From: Anaerolineae bacterium
GTDB taxonomy: Bacteria; Chloroflexota; Anaerolineae; JAADDB01
Direction of reading: 5' to 3'
Length of the DNA stretch: 40,216 nt
Assembly (NCBI GenBank): GCA_015486845.1
Contig: WFQU01000182.1
Span: forward strand, 1 to 40,216
The translations under genes and the position numbers were made by a program. Under the pieces are notes generated by a model. The model was not told the DNA's origin, did not search any database, and was given only the letters and a program-made list of their open reading frames with translations. Below are positions 13,892-36,065 of the stretch, in pieces; the stretch's first letter is position 1; the number at the start of each line of letters is the position of its first letter.

Positions 13892-15327
13892 CCCCGGCCG
13901 AACAGTTTGCCTAATAGCCCAAAGCCAAGGCAGCCAGAGGGCGATGGTTGCGAAGGCGTCGGTTCCGGTGTTGGTGATGGTGACACGGGGGGGGCTGGCG
14001 ACACGTTAGCCCCAAAAGTGCAGAGCGCTGTTTGCCATGTTTCCCCATCTTGGTCGATCCGAACGTAAGTCAAGTAGCGTTGGTTAGCGTATTTCTGCGG
14101 GTGGGCGAACAGATCGCGCCAGGTTTCTTCGTCTGCCTGGCTAAAATCGCCGCGCCACACCCAAGTGCCGCTGTTGATATAGGTGGCGCCGCTGGCCAAA
14201 TGGAACACACCTGGTTGATGCGTGTGCCCGAAAACGACAATCTTTTCTTGCCCGTCCTGGCTTATGGCCTCAGCCTGTCTGACCAATGCATCATTGCTAC
14301 TCGCGACAAGTGCCTGGCCGATGACGAACGGATCGTCGAGATCAATGTCTTGTTCCTGCTTCTCGTCCAACCAGCCGGCGGCCGTCAAGGCTTGCCAAAC
14401 TTGTCGGTTGAACTGGCGGCGGAAACCGGCGTCGGCGGCATAACGCACGCCTTGCACTTTCATGTTCGCCCGGTTGGCACTTTCTAAGTCTGTCAAAAAG
14501 GCAGCAGTAGCCTTATCAGAAAGATGGGCATCAGCCGGGGTCAGACTGGGCAAGATGAGAATGGGAGCAGCAGCCAACAATTTCAGCAGTGTCTGGATGG
14601 CAAAAGGAAAATCGAATTTCAGACCGTACCAGATCAAGTTTACCACAGGGTGCACGCCATCGATCCAGGGATAACGCGCTTCAATGTCGTTGAAATATTC
14701 AATGACGAAACGGGAGCCGGGCAGTAATTCCAGCCGGGCAGGGTTTTCCGGATCGACAGGCCGGGCGAAATTAGCAAAACGGTCCACCTGTTCGGTATAT
14801 TGGTTGCCATGTTCGACATAAAGTCCATCCTGCTGATAGGCCACCGGCAAAAAGCGCAAGCAGTCCGCTTTGGAGCCCACTGCTTCCAGCCGCCGACGCA
14901 GCGCTTCCTGCATGGCTGGCCAGTACCATTCCGGATCATGGTTACCTTTAAGCACGGTTAGGGTACGCCGGGGAGCGCCTGGATCGAGAAATGCTTGTAA
15001 TGCCGAGAATAACCCCTCGTGGCCGGCCATGATATGCTTGAGTTTCAATATGGAACCAGCGGCGCTGTTGTCCTCATAGACCGTCGGCGGATAGCTCTTC
15101 CACGGCGAATAAGTCGGTGTCGCCGGTACTTGCAGCATTTCCAAGAAGTCGCCATCGATGATCAAGTGTATATCCCGCTTCTGTGCTTTGCTCTCGGCGT
15201 CAAGCTGTTGGATCAAGCCGTTAAATTCGGGATCGCTGGTAAAATCTTCCAGTGGGTTACCGCCGGGGCCATCATGGCCGGCGCCCAAATGTAAATCACT
15301 GACAACAATCGTGCTCTGTTTGTTCAT
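13879..15327 (-). CDS. Calcineurin-like metallophosphoesterase
   Basis: Dinuclear-metal phosphoesterase. All core motifs are visible: DLHLG near the N-terminus (Asp and His of metal site 1), the IDGDFLEML block in place of GDxxD, GNHDPEW, and the C-terminal GHTHQPG. The start at the ATG at 15327 (MNKQSTIVVSDLHLG, 482 residues) is preferred, with GGAGGAG five bases upstream. A read-back to 15372 would translate a repeat. The mid-region (about 200-330) is an uncommon insertion, and the last 40 residues are Pro/Ser-rich, ending in a short Gly/Lys/Arg tail. The substrate cannot be named. The sequence is too long for LpxH and lacks a signal peptide. Confidence 0.85.
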   Translation of the reverse strand: MNKQSTIVVSDLHLGAGHDGPGGNPLEDFTSDPEFNGLIQQLDAESKAQKRDIHLIIDGDFLEMLQVPATPTYSPWKSYPPTVYEDNSAAGSILKLKHIMAGHEGLFSALQAFLDPGAPRRTLTVLKGNHDPEWYWPAMQEALRRRLEAVGSKADCLRFLPVAYQQDGLYVEHGNQYTEQVDRFANFARPVDPENPARLELLPGSRFVIEYFNDIEARYPWIDGVHPVVNLIWYGLKFDFPFAIQTLLKLLAAAPILILPSLTPADAHLSDKATAAFLTDLESANRANMKVQGVRYAADAGFRRQFNRQVWQALTAAGWLDEKQEQDIDLDDPFVIGQALVASSNDALVRQAEAISQDGQEKIVVFGHTHQPGVFHLASGATYINSGTWVWRGDFSQADEETWRDLFAHPQKYANQRYLTYVRIDQDGETWQTALCTFGANVSPAPPVSPSPTPEPTPSQPSPSGCLGFGLLGKLFGRGKRA

Positions 15328-15340
15328 GATACTCCTCCGA

Positions 15341-15446
15341 AAATAAGACATCTCCCCTGGCCTACCGCCCAAAGGGGCGGTAAGCCTTTCCCTCCCCGAT
15401 ACGGGGAGGGAAAAAAGCTAAGCGCAGCGCAGCTTAGGGGGGAGGT
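15341..15446. repeat. Family-3 composite repeat, copy A
   Basis: The order is: AAATAAGAC, CTCCCC, a TACCGCCC hairpin pairing with GGGCGGTA, CCTCCCCG/CGGGGAGG, then AAGCTAAGCGCAGCGCAGCTTA. The same order recurs at 18480-18588 with scattered substitutions, and part of it at about 34790-34816. Its start overlaps the metallophosphoesterase ribosome-site region. Confidence 0.8.
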
Positions 15447-15513
15447 CACCCTCAAAATCAATTGACGCAGCGGCGCAAAGACGCAGAACGTCTTAAAAAA
15501 TCAGGCTCCCTTA

Positions 15514-15546
15514 AGAAGTTCAACTTCTTGAAGAAGTTGAACTTCT
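15514..15546. repeat. 33-bp double palindrome, copy 2, at the 3' end of the CCA fusion gene
   Basis: AGAAGTTCAACTTCTT and its complement, separated by one base. It is the exact reverse complement of copy 3 at 34874. It overlaps the stop codon of the gene at 15545 by two bases and may act as its transcription terminator or RNA 3' end stabiliser. Confidence 0.85.
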
Positions 15547-18157
15547 AATTTGTCGACCTGCCATGTTCCGGTTCAGCCAAGAGCGTCTGCAATAATTGTT
15601 CCTCTTCCTCGCGCGACCGAATTCCGCCGTCTAACCAGGCATCGCGCAGAGTGGCCAAAATATGACCCAAGTAAGGCCCCGGGTGCACGCCTAATTCCCG
15701 CAACCGATGCCCGTCCGTGTACGGTTTGACCTGTTGCAGTTGGCGCCGGTAAAGATCGATGCGCCGGCTAACGACCGGTTCGCTGGCTGCAATTTCTACC
15801 ACAAAAAGTGTTGCCGGCCGAAATGGGCGTAATAAAGCGGCAATCTGGCTATTCGGCAACGGTTCCGACTGCAATTTGGGCAGCTGCTTCTTGAGGCGGT
15901 CGACCTCCTGCAAAAGTGTTTTCGTCTTGCCGCGCAACAGCAACCGTTTTACCAAAGCGCGCGCTACGCTTGTTTCTTGGTGGAAAAGCAGCAGAGCAAA
16001 ATAAAGACGTTCAATGGCTTCCGGCGGCTGCTGATCAGCCAACCGCAGCCGTAGCTGCTGGAACCGTTGCTGGATCCAGGGATCACAGCACAAAGCCGGG
16101 TGCAATATTTCCAAAACGTGCAACTGATCCAGCCGCCGCAGTGCCAACTCTGGCGCTTGTTCTTGCAAAATAAGTTCCAGCTCGTGACGGATCCTGGCAC
16201 CGGTGACCCGTTTCAACAAACCCACTGCGTCTTTAATCAGCGCTTCCGTTTGTGCTTCCATGCGGAAATTGAATCGCTGCTCGAAACGAACGGCGCGGAG
16301 AATGCGAGTCGGATCTTCAACAAAACTCAGGCTGTGCAACACCCGGATTATGCCCTGCTGCAAATCCGCCTCGCCGCCGAAAAAGTCCAAGAGTTCTCCC
16401 CAATGCTTGCCGTCCATGCGAATAGCGAGGGTATTAATAGTGAAATCGCGACGCAGTAAGTCCAATTTGATGGAGCTCCGTTCCACCGTTGGCAAAGCGG
16501 TGGGATGTTCGTAAAATTCAGTGCGCGCAGTGACTAAATCGATAGTCTGTGGTAGGCCAGGGCCAGTTGGAAAATCGCTACCCCGTTCTTCTGGCGCCGG
16601 CAAAATCCATTTAGCGGTGCCAAAACGATGGTGCCGGCGGATGCGACCGCCGTAATGACGCACTAACTGTTCGGCCAGCGTGATGGCATCCTGCTCCACC
16701 ACCAAGTCCACATCGAAATTAGAACGTCCCAATAGCAAGTCGCGCACAAACCCACCCACTGCATACAGAGAGAGGTCTACTTTTTCCGCTTCTTGCCCGA
16801 TGCGTTGCAATAGTGCATAGAGTCCGGGCGGGAGCGTTTCTTCCATCCGCTGCGTAATTTCGGCGGCCCGGCTGCCGTTCATCGGTGTTTGCCATCCTTT
16901 GATCAGATCAGTGCGGGTAACAATGCCAATGATGTGATCATTAGTATCGACGACCGGAATCTGTCCCCAGCCGCTGGTGACGATGAGGCGGCGTAGCCGT
17001 GCTACCGAGGCGTCTGGCCGAATGGTAAAATGGCCAGCGTGCATATAGAGCTGCACCGGGCTATTGCCCAAGCCATGGTGTAATGCCCTATCCACTTGAC
17101 GTCTAGTAAGTATGCCCAACAACCGGCCCTTTTCGTCCACCACAGGAAAGCCCTCGAAACCATACTGGCGCATACGGTCGGCGGCTATCGCAATTTTCTC
17201 CGTTGGGTTGAGTGTTTGCACGCCGGCAGACATGATCTGGGCTACAGTGATGGCCGGTTGTACTTCCTGACGCAATTTTTGAATAAGCTGGCGTTTTATT
17301 TGTATCAGGTCACTGTTATCGACGACCGCGGCGGCGGCTCGAGGATGACCGCCGCCGCCCATTTGCCGGGCGATTTCGCCCACATCCACCGCATCATTGC
17401 TACTGCGCGCGACCAATTGAATGCGATCGCCAATTTTCACCAACAGGAAAAGTGCTGTCGGTTCAAAAAGGTTGCGCATTTTATGCGCCAAAGTCGATAT
17501 TTCGTCCACCATCTCCGGCGCTTCGGCTGTGGCGATAAGCAGCGTGTGCCCTTTCATGGTAATAATGTCGCTATTCTGGATGAGCAAGTCGTACAGGATC
17601 CGCTGTTGGGTGCTCAAAGGATGAATGAGAAAACGGCGGGCTATTTCCAGCCTGGCTTCGTGCGCCAAGAGCCAAGCCACGGCATTAGCGTCCCGGGCAG
17701 TACTGCTTTGATAAAGTAACATGCCGGTATCTTCGTAAATGCCCAAAAGGAAAAGTGTGGCTTCTATCGGTGTTACCGGCAGTCCCTGACTAATGATTTT
17801 CTCCACCAACAACGTGGTATTAGCGCCTACAGACTCGCCCTGGTATTGCCAATGAGCCGGCAAGTCAGCGTTCTTTGCGTGGTGGTCGATGACTAAGACA
17901 GGTGTTGTCTGCTTGACACCTCGTGGTGCCTGGAAAGATTGGGCGTCAACTAAAACAATCCGGTCGACAGCGCGCCGGGGCCACGTTTTTGCTTGCTCTA
18001 ATGGGAATGCTTCGCCGTACAGGGAAAGAAACGCCTGTAAATTGCGATTCAGATGGCGCGGCAACAAAGCTTCTGCCTCAGGAAATAGTTTCTTGGCAGC
18101 CACTAAGCTGGCTAAGGCATCAAAATCTGTGTGTTCATGGGTAAGAATGAGTTCCAT
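15545..18157 (-). CDS. DHH phosphoesterase-CBS-tRNA nucleotidyltransferase fusion
   Basis: An 870-residue protein with three modules. Residues 1-290 are a DHH/DHHA1 phosphoesterase: HEHTDFDALAS with D11 and D13, VLVIDHHAKN (DHH at 91-93), YEDTGML, and GGGGHPRAA at 267-275, as in nanoRNA/pAp phosphatases. Residues 305-420 are two CBS domains (IMSAGVQTL..., MHAGHFTIRP...), usually adenosine-ligand sensors. Residues 450-870 are a class II nucleotidyltransferase: GGFVRD at 468-473, the metal pair DVD at 482-484, DFTINTLAIRM, and VEDPTRILRAVRFEQRF. It would add CCA (or A, or CC) to tRNA 3' ends, while the DHH module removes short RNA or pAp. The fusion is known in several deep-branching bacteria; the link here is inferred. 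SD AGAGGAG lies 11 bases before the ATG. It is probably transcribed alone. Confidence 0.9.
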   Translation of the reverse strand: MELILTHEHTDFDALASLVAAKKLFPEAEALLPRHLNRNLQAFLSLYGEAFPLEQAKTWPRRAVDRIVLVDAQSFQAPRGVKQTTPVLVIDHHAKNADLPAHWQYQGESVGANTTLLVEKIISQGLPVTPIEATLFLLGIYEDTGMLLYQSSTARDANAVAWLLAHEARLEIARRFLIHPLSTQQRILYDLLIQNSDIITMKGHTLLIATAEAPEMVDEISTLAHKMRNLFEPTALFLLVKIGDRIQLVARSSNDAVDVGEIARQMGGGGHPRAAAAVVDNSDLIQIKRQLIQKLRQEVQPAITVAQIMSAGVQTLNPTEKIAIAADRMRQYGFEGFPVVDEKGRLLGILTRRQVDRALHHGLGNSPVQLYMHAGHFTIRPDASVARLRRLIVTSGWGQIPVVDTNDHIIGIVTRTDLIKGWQTPMNGSRAAEITQRMEETLPPGLYALLQRIGQEAEKVDLSLYAVGGFVRDLLLGRSNFDVDLVVEQDAITLAEQLVRHYGGRIRRHHRFGTAKWILPAPEERGSDFPTGPGLPQTIDLVTARTEFYEHPTALPTVERSSIKLDLLRRDFTINTLAIRMDGKHWGELLDFFGGEADLQQGIIRVLHSLSFVEDPTRILRAVRFEQRFNFRMEAQTEALIKDAVGLLKRVTGARIRHELELILQEQAPELALRRLDQLHVLEILHPALCCDPWIQQRFQQLRLRLADQQPPEAIERLYFALLLFHQETSVARALVKRLLLRGKTKTLLQEVDRLKKQLPKLQSEPLPNSQIAALLRPFRPATLFVVEIAASEPVVSRRIDLYRRQLQQVKPYTDGHRLRELGVHPGPYLGHILATLRDAWLDGGIRSREEEEQLLQTLLAEPEHGRSTN

Positions 18158-18182
18158 TTGAACGTATTCTCCTCTAAAAATA

Positions 18183-18268
18183 AAAATGGGACGCAGATCA
18201 ACGCAGGCTGCGCACGCAGATAAAAAACAGTGGTCAAAAAATTAGTAACAGATTCTCCCCTGAAAATA
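18183..18268. repeat. Family-4 repeat, copy B, directly upstream of the CCA fusion
   Basis: Read on the minus strand it starts TATTTTCAGGGGAGAATC and ends ATCTGCGTCCCATTTT, just before the SD of the gene starting at 18157. It matches copy D (34995-35081, plus strand) with about four differences in 85 bases. Confidence 0.9.
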
Positions 18269-18322
18269 GTCCCCATTGCGCCGGAGTAGAGTCTTTAGCC
18301 GGGGGGAACGCTACAAAACCGC

Positions 18323-18379
18323 CTAAAGGCTCGAGTCCAGCCATAGGTTTTCATCCGCTGTGGTGCGCCGTAGGCCCAT
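18323..18379 (-). other. SD-led mini-ORF of 18 codons
   Basis: ATG at 18379, TAG at 18323, preceded by AGAGGAG and a 5-base spacer TTATC. The product would be MGLRRTTADENLWLDSSL. Its first eleven residues match the second mini-ORF at 18465 at nine positions. It is either a short peptide gene or a relic of a duplicated gene start. No terminator follows. Confidence 0.35.
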
Positions 18380-18399
18380 GATAACTCCTCTGAAAATAG
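18348..18399. repeat. Gene-start module (family 5), copy 1
   Basis: A 52-bp unit containing (minus strand) TATTTTCAGAGGAG, TTATC, ATG and about 27 further bases. It is repeated at 18434-18486 with a handful of differences. The same leader form recurs before the metallophosphoesterase ATG. Confidence 0.8.
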
Positions 18400-18429
18400 A
18401 ACGCTGATTAACGCTGATACACGCTGATC

Positions 18430-18465
18430 TTAATTTTCATCCGCTGTGGTGTGCCGTAGGCTCAT
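18430..18465 (-). other. SD-led mini-ORF of 11 codons
   Basis: ATG at 18465, TAA at 18430, product MSLRHTTADEN, preceded by AAGAGAG and TTATC. It is a paralogue of the mini-ORF at 18379, cut short by a stop where the next repeat begins. Confidence 0.35.
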
Positions 18466-18486
18466 GATAACTCTCTTGAAAATAAG
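18434..18486. repeat. Gene-start module (family 5), copy 2
   Basis: Second copy of the unit at 18348-18399, in the same orientation. Between the two lies a short GCTGATTAACGCTGATACACGCTGATC stretch of iterated GCTGAT. Confidence 0.8.
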
Positions 18487-18588
18487 ACCTCTCCCCCGGC
18501 TTACCGTCCCTTTTGGGTGGTAAGCCTTCCCCTCCCCGTGTCGGGGAGGGGAGAAAGCTAAGCGCAGCGCAGCTTAGAGGAGGGTCTC
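18480..18588. repeat. Family-3 composite repeat, copy B
   Basis: Same block order and orientation as copy A at 15341-15446. The palindrome AAGCTAAGCGCAGCGCAGCTTA is unchanged, and the flanking CCTCCCC/GGGGAGG arms show compensated changes. Confidence 0.8.
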
Positions 18589-18598
18589 CCCTGAAAAT

Positions 18599-18690
18599 AA
18601 AATGGGACGCAGATCAACGCAGGCTGTGCACGCAGACAAAAAATCAGTGAAAATCAGCGTTTATCTACGCCATCTGCGTCCAATTGTCGG
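18599..18690. repeat. Family-4 repeat, copy C
   Basis: Starts like copy B (AATGGGACGCAGATCAACGCAGG) but ends like copy A (TTTATCTACGCCATCTGCGTCC). This shows that the family is a mosaic of sub-blocks. The remaining sequence to 18945 holds no further gene that I can support. Confidence 0.8.
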
Positions 18691-18945
18691 AAAAGCGAAG
18701 TCGTTACCCTTTTCCTTTACGCCTTGGGCCTCTTTGCGGCCTTGCGCCCAATTCTTTGTCAGTATACAAGAATTTAACCGATAAGATATTATACCGATTC
18801 CCGGTCAAATAGGGAATTAGCAGTGGAAAGCAAAAGATAAATCCGGTTGCCTCATTATGTCATATTTGCCAGCATCGTTCTCTTATCATACAATATTTGC
18901 AGTCCCACCCATGCATGTTCCCAAAGCAAAGAGAAAGGTCAGGAA

Positions 18946-21900
18946 ATGAGGACGCGATTGAAGAAATATATTCTTTTTCTATCGATAGCATTTGCTCTCT
19001 ATTCATTCACAGGCCCGGCTAACGTTTATGCTGCCGGACGAACTTCTTCTGAACCAACGGCCAGTGCCTGGAAAATCCAGTGGCGCGCCGATCGAGATCT
19101 GCACGACATTGTTGCACTTCCTGGCGGCACGATCTATGCCATTGGCAACCAGGGCGCTTTTTACAAATCAGTTGATGGCGGGCAACACTGGCATTACCAA
19201 AAAGTATGCTCCGCAAATTTAAATGCGGCTCTGTTCCGCACCGACGGCCACGGCTGGGTAGTAGGCGATCTCGGTGTTATTTTCCAGACCAGCAACGGCG
19301 GTGCGACCTGGACCGCCCAGCAAAGTAATACACAACATAATCTGCGGGATATTGCAGCGGACAACGCCGGCCATTTATGGGCTGTTGGTGATCACGGTGC
19401 TTTGCTCCATAGTGACGATGGCCAAACCTGGCTGGTCATGGCGCCGCCCACTATTTTCGCCCTGACGGCGGTCTATTTCTCCGATCAGGATCATGGCTGG
19501 ATCGTGGGCACCCACGGCGTTTTGTTGCGCACAGCAGATGCCGGCAGTAACTGGACAACGCAAAGCGGCAGCACGGCCTGGCTATATGACATTGCTTTTT
19601 CCAGCAGTGGGCAAGAAGGTTGGATCGTGGGCAACAGCGGGACCATTCTGCACAGCACGGATGCTGGCAGCAGTTGGCAGGCGGTAGCTAATCCTTCCAG
19701 CTACAATTTACGAGGGGTAGCAGCGGCCGGCCCGGGCAAAGCGTGGGTCGTCGGTGCTGGCGGATTCATTGCCGCGGTGGATGCTCAGGGTGTGCACCAA
19801 CATATAACGCCGGTACAAACAAATTTGACGGCTGCGACCGTCGGGGACGGAACGATTTGGTTTGCCGGAGCGTGGAACGCGATTCTGCGCAGCCAGGACG
19901 GAGGCACGAATTGGGACATGCCCAACGGCGGCGGCGTGTACGAATTCTTCGATGTCTCTTTTGCCGATAGCAAGCACGGCTGGGTTGTCGGACAACGTCA
20001 TCACCAGCAGAACGCCGAGAAACATTTGGGCATCATCTTTCACACGGATGATGGCGGTTATTCCTGGGAGATGCAACATTTCCCCGGCGAGAGCGGTGAA
20101 TTCGAGGGCGTTTCTTTTGCCGATGCCCAGCGCGGCGTGGTCACTGGTCGCTACGGCAAAGCGCTATACACGGAAGACGGCGGGCAGACCTGGCATACTC
20201 AAACGCTGCCGCCAGCGGCCAACTGGATTTACCGGGTAGAAATGGATCCGACCGGCAACGCCTGGGCCGGGGCCTCTTTCGGCCGCCTGTACCACACGAT
20301 GGATTTCGGCCACAACTGGGATTATTATTGTCTGCATTTTCCCTCGCCCGGCGAAGGGACTTGTATCAACAAATTCAATTTGACGGTGCGCGGCTTAGCA
20401 GCCGTGGGACAAAACGTGTGGCTCTTGGGCAAAGACGGACAAATGGAAGTAGGTACTGATGTGGGGGCCGGTCGTCTCAACACCCTCACTGCTGCGCCCG
20501 CCCAGGTTTACGAACATTGGTATCGGGTGCCTTTAATCTCGGGCCGTGCGTTTAACCATTTAAACAACGGCTATTTTCTCAATTTGAACGAAGGATGGGT
20601 AGTCGGCGTAGCCGGCGCGCTGTGGCACACTTTAGACGGCGGCCGTTCTAGCGGCGACTGGACCCTGATGACTCCAACAGACACGCTACCCCCCGCGTGG
20701 CGCATCGCCGACCTGTATGACGTACAATTCGCTAATAAGAAAACCGGCATTGTGGTAGGTGGTCAGTGCGATGATTACAGCCGGCCGGCTAATCCGGCGT
20801 CTGGCGACGACCATTTTTGGTGCGTTTATGCTTACAGCGATGATTATACATACGACCGAGCGTTCCTGGCCCGGACAAAGGATGGCGGTCGGAATTGGCA
20901 AACAGAAGTCATTCCTGGCGTGCCTATACTTTACGAAGTGTCCATGGTAGGAGATAATGCCGCCTGGGCCGTGGGCGCGGCCGGTGCCATTGTGCATTAT
21001 GCCGGCGAACCGTCGGCGCCGGTGGCTTATCAGATGAATACTGCACCAACCCTCGATGGTAATTTAAACGATTGGCCACACGTCGGCGTGCTCTCTGTCA
21101 CAGCTACGACAGCAGATAACGTGCAAGGGGTCGATGTGCCCTCTTCCACTGATTTGAGCGCGACTTTACGGACTGTTTGGCTGCCAGATCGACTGCTTCT
21201 TGGCATACACGTGAACGACGATCAAGTGGAAACCAGCGCGTCTAATTTTCTGAACGACGATAGTATCGAATTAGGCATTGACGGCGCCCATAATAATGTT
21301 GGGGGAGGCCATGACGATCATCTGTATCTGATCACCGCGGCCGGCGCTACATACGACTGGATGACACCCACCACGACAATTTCGGCCGCGGTACAGTGTG
21401 TTGCCGGTGGCTACGAGATAGAGCTAGCCATACCGGCTGCTCAAATTTTGGGACACAGCGGCACATTAAGCGCCGGTCAACAAATTGGATTCAGTCTGGC
21501 TTTACGCGACAACGACAACGGCGGCAAGATCGATAACATTATTGTGAAAGACGGCACAGATCCCGGCACACCCAGCGCCGAGTTCGGCACGATCACGTTA
21601 CGCGGTCGTCAACTCATCTTGCAGCGCGATTTGAACGACTTTTCGACCGTGCAAGATACATACATCGATCGTTATCATGCAACAACCAATTACTCACAGC
21701 AAGATGCTTCTCGTTTGCACTTGTTGCACTTAGCAGCCAATAACAGCTTAGGCGATATCGCTTCGGCTTTGTTCAAGTTCGACCTTTCCTTTTTGCCGCG
21801 CGAAACTGTGATTACAAAAGCCGATCTCGTGCTGCGGGTGGGAATACGACAAGGCAATGGGACACTGCATGCCGCACTGTACAAATTACTCCGGCCCTGG

Positions 21901-34906: not shown

Positions 34907-34994
34907 GAAATAGGGCATCAGTGTTAATCGACGTTCTATTTTCCGGAGGAGAGGGTAGCCGAGGGCAATGCCCTCAGCCACCCTCCAGAGAAGT

Positions 34995-35081
34995 TTATTT
35001 TCAGGAGAGAATCTGTTACTAATTTTTTGACCATTGTTTTTTATCTGCGTGCGCAGCCTGTGTTTATCTGCGTCCCATTTT
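34995..35081. repeat. Family-4 repeat, copy D, directly upstream of the first permease gene
   Basis: About 85 bp almost identical (about four differences) to copy B in the opposite orientation. It ends 21 bases before the permease ATG. In both loci the unit starts TATTTTCAGG and ends at the leader of an unrelated gene. Confidence 0.9.
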
Positions 35082-35102
35082 ATGTGCAGAGAAGGATATT
35101 CC

Positions 35103-36065
35103 ATGACCGTTTCTACCTCCACATCTTCGCCTCCGCGCAAGCGGAACTGGCACTCGTTGCAGGCCAGCGAAACCCGTTTGGCGTGGGGACTCATCTCGCC
35201 GACCGCCATTATTGTTTTCGGCTTAGTGCTGTTTCCGGCCTTTTTCAGTATTTGGATTAGCTTTCATCAAGTGACACTCAGGAACTTGAACGATGTCTTT
35301 CATGCCCCTTTTATTGGGTTTGATAATTATCGATCTGTTTTCACTGATTTCGCCTTCAAGTATCACAATTTACTGAACATGGGCGCCGCTGTAACCAGTG
35401 TCGTTTACTCTTTCTTGGCTACGATTTTCACCGTGATAGTGGGCCTCATTGCCGCGCTATTGCTCAACAAACCTTTTCGCGGCCGCGGCCTATCCCGGGC
35501 GACATTCTTGTTCCCGTATGTGGCGCCCATCGTCAGCGTGGCATTCATCTGGCGCTGGCTGCTGGACCCTCGGCCTTCCGGCGTCCTCAATGACTTGCTG
35601 ATGCGTTTGAACCTCATTCACATGCCGAAAGCATATTTGGCCACTCGCGGCCTGGCGCTCGTGTTGGTTATTATCTTTGAAGCGTGGCGCTATTTCCCAT
35701 TTGCCATGTTGATGATTTTAGCCCGATTGCAAGCCATTGACAGTACGCTTTACGAAGCGGCAGACGTGGACGGCGCCAGCACGTGGTCTAAATTTCTCTA
35801 CATCACCATGCCGGAATTGCGTTACATCGTGGGCGCCATTTTCCTCCTGCGTCTGATCTGGACGTTCAACAAATTCGACGATATCTTTTTGTTGACAGGA
35901 GGCGGCTTCGGTACCAATGTGCTGCCGGTGCTCACCTACCAGTTCAGTTTCAAGATGTTCAATTTCGGCAAAGGCGCTGCTACTGCCATGATTCTGTTGC
36001 TGGCGCTGATCATTTTCCTGGCGGCCTACATTCTCGTCGTCATGAGAAACGTCGAAGAAGCGTGA
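35103..36065 (+). CDS. Sugar ABC transporter permease, MalF/UgpA type
   Basis: Inner-membrane permease of 320 residues from the ATG at 35103 (AAGGA seven bases upstream; read-back to 35034 is repeat). Six membrane segments are visible, starting with LAWGLISPTAIIVFGLVLFPAFFSIW. The EAA loop that docks on the ATPase is EAADVDGASTWSKFLYITMPELR (about 237-259). It forms a heterodimer with the product of the next gene, 16 bases downstream. The first 30 residues are Ser/Thr/Arg-rich and cytoplasmic. Confidence 0.93.
   Translation: MTVSTSTSSPPRKRNWHSLQASETRLAWGLISPTAIIVFGLVLFPAFFSIWISFHQVTLRNLNDVFHAPFIGFDNYRSVFTDFAFKYHNLLNMGAAVTSVVYSFLATIFTVIVGLIAALLLNKPFRGRGLSRATFLFPYVAPIVSVAFIWRWLLDPRPSGVLNDLLMRLNLIHMPKAYLATRGLALVLVIIFEAWRYFPFAMLMILARLQAIDSTLYEAADVDGASTWSKFLYITMPELRYIVGAIFLLRLIWTFNKFDDIFLLTGGGFGTNVLPVLTYQFSFKMFNFGKGAATAMILLLALIIFLAAYILVVMRNVEEA

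Follow-up and report, generated by a model that had tools for sequence, protein, structure and literature searches.

Upstream of a gene for a DHH/CBS/CCA-type nucleotidyltransferase fusion, the minus strand of an Anaerolineae contig carries two short open frames, each led by a Shine–Dalgarno (SD) sequence and both lying in an array of repeats. Are these genes for tiny peptides, the remains of a duplicated gene start, or by-products of the repeat itself? The window analysed here is the whole stretch of 40,216 nucleotides, contig C182 of a 3.28-Mb host genome (G000). Repeat copies were analysed in detail in a 1.07-Mb sample of stretches from that genome, the contigs being partly picked for carrying copies.

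Two short frames in a modular repeat array

Both SD-led frames of the first-pass annotation are real. Mini-ORF 1 reads ATG AGC CTA CGG CAC ACC ACA GCG GAT GAA AAT TAA (MSLRHTTADEN*) on the minus strand at 18465-18430, with its ATG 5 nt downstream of AAGAGAG; the ATG of mini-ORF 2 lies 5 nt downstream of AGAGGAG. The two units that contain them form a 51-nt direct repeat, 90% identical and spaced at 86 nt. The 37-nt unit, TTATCATGRGCCTRYGGCRCACCACAGCGGATGAAAA, occurs far beyond chance: at up to 3 mismatches, the host genome holds 128 copies and a reversed-pattern control gives 0.

The units belong to longer modules. A module starts directly after (R)GGAG, either with TTATCATG... (TCGGCATG... 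in diverged copies; the left-end junction can also be written GGAG/TTATCATGRGCC) or with another left end. Its middle is one of several interchangeable cargoes, and it closes with TATTTTCARRGGAG, of which the host genome contains 262 exact copies (reversed-pattern control, 0). Left ends differ between module types, the right-end motif is common to all, and in three genomes one and the same left core is joined to different, exchangeable cargo pieces. The array before the CCA-fusion gene runs from a CTGCG cargo through M4, M1, M2 and M3 to an 11-nt spacer and the ATG.

18586-18643, minus: upstream CTGCG cargo, ending in TATTTTCAGGGGAG (18599-18586); repeat D4
18471-18585, minus: module M4, 115 nt; three-hairpin cargo and right end TATTTTCAAGAGAG (18484-18471), which is the SD-like sequence before mini-ORF 1
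18385-18470, minus: module M1, 86 nt; left core TTATCATG..GATGAAAA, CAGCG/CTGCG cargo and right end TATTTTCAGAGGAG (18398-18385); repeat D3
18430-18465, minus: mini-ORF 1, translated MSLRHTTADEN*, inside M1; one of the 128 genome copies of the unit
18255-18384, minus: module M2, 130 nt; left core of M1, hairpin cargo (GGACTCGAGCCTTTAGGCGG / CCGGCTAAAGACTCTACTCC) and right end TATTTTCAGGGGAG (18268-18255)
18323-18379, minus: mini-ORF 2, translated MGLRRTTADENLWLDSSL*, inside M2; the 18-codon form, as in 24 of the 86 sampled copies
18169-18254, minus: module M3, 86 nt; AATCTGTTACTAATTTTTTGACC, CTGCG cargo and right end TATTTTTAGAGGAG (18182-18169); this end is also the SD for the CCA-fusion gene
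18155-18168, minus: gene-specific spacer AATACGTTCAA and ATG of the DHH/CBS/CCA-type nucleotidyltransferase fusion (ORF 18157-15545)
15346-15464, minus: M4-type module before the metallophosphoesterase gene; repeats D1 and D6
15325-15345, minus: module right end TATTTTCGGAGGAG, TATC and the metallophosphoesterase ATG (15327); Pfam Metallophos

The CCA-fusion ORF contains the Pfam domains DHH, DHHA1, CBS and PolyA_pol. The metallophosphoesterase gene had been proposed to share the leader form of the mini-ORFs; a module does end at its start, but one of the M4 type rather than a mini-ORF unit; it is 81% identical to M4 and followed by the spacer TATC (4 nt). Spacers of the form ...ATC-ATG precede 5 of 35 array genes versus 17 of 267 other SD genes, and the TATC spacer is not clearly above chance.

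M4 folds strongly (z = -6.2), and both M4 modules (18471-18585 and 15346-15464, minus) form three hairpins within an outer stem, cloverleaf-like. Strong hairpins in the left core or in M1 were considered and rejected on fold z-scores near 0. No Rfam family matches in 15200-19000. A third module array occupies 34937-35103 of the window on the plus strand, ending TATGTGCAGAGAAGG before an ORF that starts ATGACCGTTTCTACC at ~35103.

The unit extends beyond the host genome. With its GGAG, it is found in 12 copies in G003, a genome of the same family and another genus that has contigs in common with the Anaerolineae bacterium S014_12 records, and in 3 copies in G060 (Chloroflexi MAG, isolate G576). 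It is absent from two other genomes of the same family, and other families of the class carry weak relatives of it, one without the ATG. Many contigs of the host genome end inside or beside arrays (for example C6, C18, C44, C62, C75, C81 and C175), so the true copy number is probably above our count.

Coding potential of the frames

The 1.07-Mb sample contains 86 copies of the unit, 82 of them with the ATG. If the frames were tiny peptide genes, as had been suggested, synonymous changes should be in excess. They are not: across the 11 codons of the 86 copies, 9 of 32 distinct changes are synonymous, against 8.8±1.6 expected when the same mutation types are placed at random, and the other two frames of the unit give 7 of 29 and 8 of 30. 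Coding selection thus went undetected in 58 copies and then in all 86, although weak constraint could be missed because recently amplified copies carry few independent changes. The window pair had been described as differing by several base changes that keep the frame open and most residues the same. Both frames are open; over the shared 33 coding nucleotides there are just 2 differences (AGC/GGC and CAC/CGC), both residue-changing, so the pair shows no sign of synonymous constraint. The joined cargo determines both the length and the C-terminus: the frame has 11 codons in 39 copies, 18 in 24 and from 3 to 74 in the rest. The ATG has decayed in 4 of the 86 copies, and ATA or ACG takes its place in copies of a related genome.

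Might the mini-ORFs nevertheless function as leader peptides or upstream ORFs, controlling the genes downstream through translation coupling or attenuation, say, and have spread as regulatory cassettes? That 82 of 86 copies retain the ATG at ideal SD spacing, and that every unit points at a gene, which with few exceptions is on its own strand, would suit such a role. The absence of a synonymous excess, the two residue-changing differences in the window, the cargo-dependent C-termini and lengths, the ATA and ACG copies and the lack of a common function among the host genes all argue the other way, and we consider it improbable. The region around the ATG is as conserved as the rest of the unit, and given this equal conservation the unit may have a role in translation.

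The frames had alternatively been read as remains of a gene-start cassette. A repeat is indeed involved, and it does sit at gene starts; it was not seen to continue into a full-length protein in any copy. A source protein was sought and rejected: no conserved long ORF follows the frame in any of the 86 sampled copies or in the G003 and G060 copies. A decayed start of a real protein gene, copied along with its SD, would account for the gene-like succession of SD, spacer and ATG. However, at the occupied sites compared below, the left-border SD is the host gene's own, and we judge such an origin highly improbable. The resemblance to a gene start arises because the modules sit immediately 3' of real SDs and end in an SD of their own. 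Judged on sequence, the mini-ORFs are probably by-products of a dispersed, modular, non-coding repeat rather than peptide genes.

Shine–Dalgarno sequences at both module borders

In the 1.07-Mb sample, a third of the genome, 65 distinct ORFs have their start a short way past a module end; two of the genes that begin in this manner are the CCA-fusion and metallophosphoesterase genes of the window. Scaled up, this gives ~200 genes genome-wide, a figure that is probably too high because the sampled contigs were partly chosen for carrying copies. The spacer from module end to start codon has ordinary SD spacing, with a mode of 5-8 nt in a 0.74-Mb subset. The genes, named from reading their N-termini, include frr, gatB, tsaD, rpiB, purB and many unrelated others, and share no common function. 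Core copies share their strand with the next gene in 53 cases and face a gene on the opposite strand in 5, versus 407:335 for intergenic gaps in general. Some module ends have no recognizable gene start after them.

Both borders carry SD-like sequence. The left border of the 86 copies reads GGGAG in 43, AGGAG in 22 and GGTAG in 8, these last mainly or wholly following a single other type of repeat. Where the left flanks are unrelated, non-repeat sequence, exactly GGAG stands at the junction in 13 of 18 copies (the 13 counted by eye). At the right border, 34 of the 39 sampled M1 copies end in exactly TATTTTCAGAGGAG, whatever gene follows; this constancy across different genes indicates that the SD belongs to the module.

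To understand what a module does to a leader, we compared three orthologous leaders between G000 and G003, which belong to different genera and therefore align in short stretches only:

nuoD-nuoI, occupied in G003: nuoD stop, 34 nt ending CAGAGGAG, modules, AGGGCGAT-ATG, with the right end of the last module altered (CTTATACGAGGAG)
nuoD-nuoI, empty in G000: nuoD stop, 33 nt ending ACAGGAG (native GGAG), AAGTAAATAAAT-ATG
Response regulator after histidine kinase, occupied in G003: ...ACACAGAG, modules, ...CTTCAAAGGAG-TGATC-ATG
Response regulator after histidine kinase, empty in G000: ...GAGCAAAGGAG-CCATC-ATG
pyrH-frr, occupied in G000: ...CGCTTAGGGAG, modules, TATTTTCAGAGGAG-GAAAAGGGATC-ATG
pyrH-frr, empty in G003: ...CGCTACAAGGAG-AGAAAATC-ATG

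In all three, the array lies directly 3' of the native SD of the gene. As regards target-site duplication, GGAG is present on both sides at occupied sites and once at empty sites, and the right-hand GGAG, constant in M1, looks module-borne. For one more gene, 8 of the 9 spacer positions after the SD match between the two genomes, and G000 alone has a module. No orthologous gene start usable as an empty site was found among relatives of G060, and the leaders of CCA-fusion orthologs in other genera are uninformative at that distance. The secG start carries arrays in both G000 and G003 (L113 and L054); the two arrays are made of different modules, which suggests repeated use of this one gene start. 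Three G003 leaders (L171, L174 and L179), upstream of genes that have modules in G000, contain a dispersed leader repeat that is G003's own (gtcgagcctaaaacgtcattttcgccagac and similar).

We propose that a module would insert immediately 3' of the native SD of a gene (..GGAG/TTATCATG..). Its left end would bring an ATG 5 nt further on, leaving the former gene SD to lead an accidental frame of 11 to 18 codons, occasionally longer. Its right end, TATTTTCARRGGAG, would provide a new SD, correctly placed ahead of the spacer and start codon that belong to the gene. This new SD could in turn receive more modules on its 3' side, building head-to-tail arrays such as M4-M1-M2-M3 before the CCA-fusion gene. 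Copy number, module borders, orientation, the three occupied and empty sites and the lack of detectable coding selection are read directly from the DNA. Spacing and the essential nature of some of the genes suggest that the module SD drives their translation; any translation of the mini-ORFs would be incidental. We hold this account of repeat by-products and SD exchange, taken as a whole, with good confidence.

The mode of spread is a separate matter. The arrays could instead stem from recombination or template switching among intergenic repeats with SD motifs, selection preserving one SD per gene and the unit being neither mobile nor GGAG-targeting; in all but the mode of spread, this overlaps our account. 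The unlike left ends with their common right-end motif, the swapping of cargo behind one left core in three genomes and the fact that no transposase tied to the modules was found in the host genome are in keeping with it. Unrelated left flanks are nevertheless joined at exactly GGAG in those 13 of 18 copies, the native SD stands at the left border of the compared occupied sites, as expected from insertion, and five shared bases are short for homologous recombination. We regard this route as unlikely, though well short of negligible. Under insertion, our preferred reading, the modules would actively transpose, and GGAG itself would be targeted, as opposed to insertions elsewhere all being purged by selection. 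Tentatively, they may even represent an undescribed mobile element that targets an SD, takes it over and returns a built-in replacement, sitting inside operons and before essential genes and giving a leader frame to perhaps 200 mRNAs in a single genome.

Insertions between SD and start codon should normally silence a gene, and a repeat with its own SD would escape this. It could enter sites that other elements cannot, for example the inside of operons (pyrH-frr, nuoD-nuoI). If this is true, translation initiation has been rewired for a few per cent of the genes of a genome, and the modules offer a natural leader-swap series for testing the effect of SD context. For annotation, the lesson is that short frames recurring behind an SD in these genomes are not to be called as small proteins.

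Comparison with known repeats and mobile elements

IS200/IS605-type elements transpose as single strands, insert immediately 3' of a short, invariant target, do not clearly duplicate it and have a hairpin near their left end. The placement of the modules is similar, and single-strand transposition of this kind would fit the constant target on their 5' side and the small hairpin close to their left end; we identified no matching TnpA or right-end hairpin here. Terminal inverted repeats of the MITE type do not join the ends of M1 or M2, which contain internal GAAAAT/ATTTTC pairing only.

REP and BIME elements are palindromes tagged with GTAG or CGTC and associated with RAYT (Y1) transposases, and GTAG repeats have been reported from Chloroflexi (PMC3733652, PMC2817692, PMC3116915). 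Like the modules, they are intergenic mosaics present in many copies, with an invariant short tag beside a hairpin. The module tag, in contrast, is GGAG at gene starts: most of the 86 copies have GGAG at the left border, and not the GTAG or CGTC that adjoins a REP palindrome. The two Y1_Tnp loci of the host genome hold neither the core nor the right-end motif. We rejected a RAYT/REP origin, as these two Y1 genes go with another palindrome. In the window, a perfect palindrome (AGAAGTTCAACTTCTT-C-AAGAAGTTGAACTTCT, 15514-15546) occurs a short distance upstream of the metallophosphoesterase array. A closely similar palindrome flanks a Y1 (RAYT-like) transposase remnant on contig C73 of G000, so the window palindrome looks like that enzyme's own repeat.

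The TAACTGA direct repeats of Beggiatoaceae, tandem heptamers of 7 nt, overlap the ribosome-binding site and have little SD character (PMC4679880). Unlike the modules, they supply no SD and are not composite (PMC4679880). Among open-licence papers we found no repeat that enters at SDs with a substitute SD, nor an SD repeat from Chloroflexi; in both properties the modules appear novel among dispersed intergenic repeats, no such report having been found.

A similar architecture is that of the BOX, RUP and SPRITE repeats of Streptococcus pneumoniae, which the portion of the source consulted describes as modular, dispersed, apparently parasitic, non-autonomous and adjoining genes (PMC3049150). According to the same portion, some pneumococcal repeats create new open frames, including ones with the start codon inside the repeat, and the BOX-made frames lack good SDs; SD-specific insertion or SD replacement is not described there for BOX, RUP or SPRITE (PMC3049150). 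High-copy, modular, intergenic and, as their size suggests, non-autonomous, the modules fall by architecture into a BOX-like class, in a phylum different from that of the BOX host.
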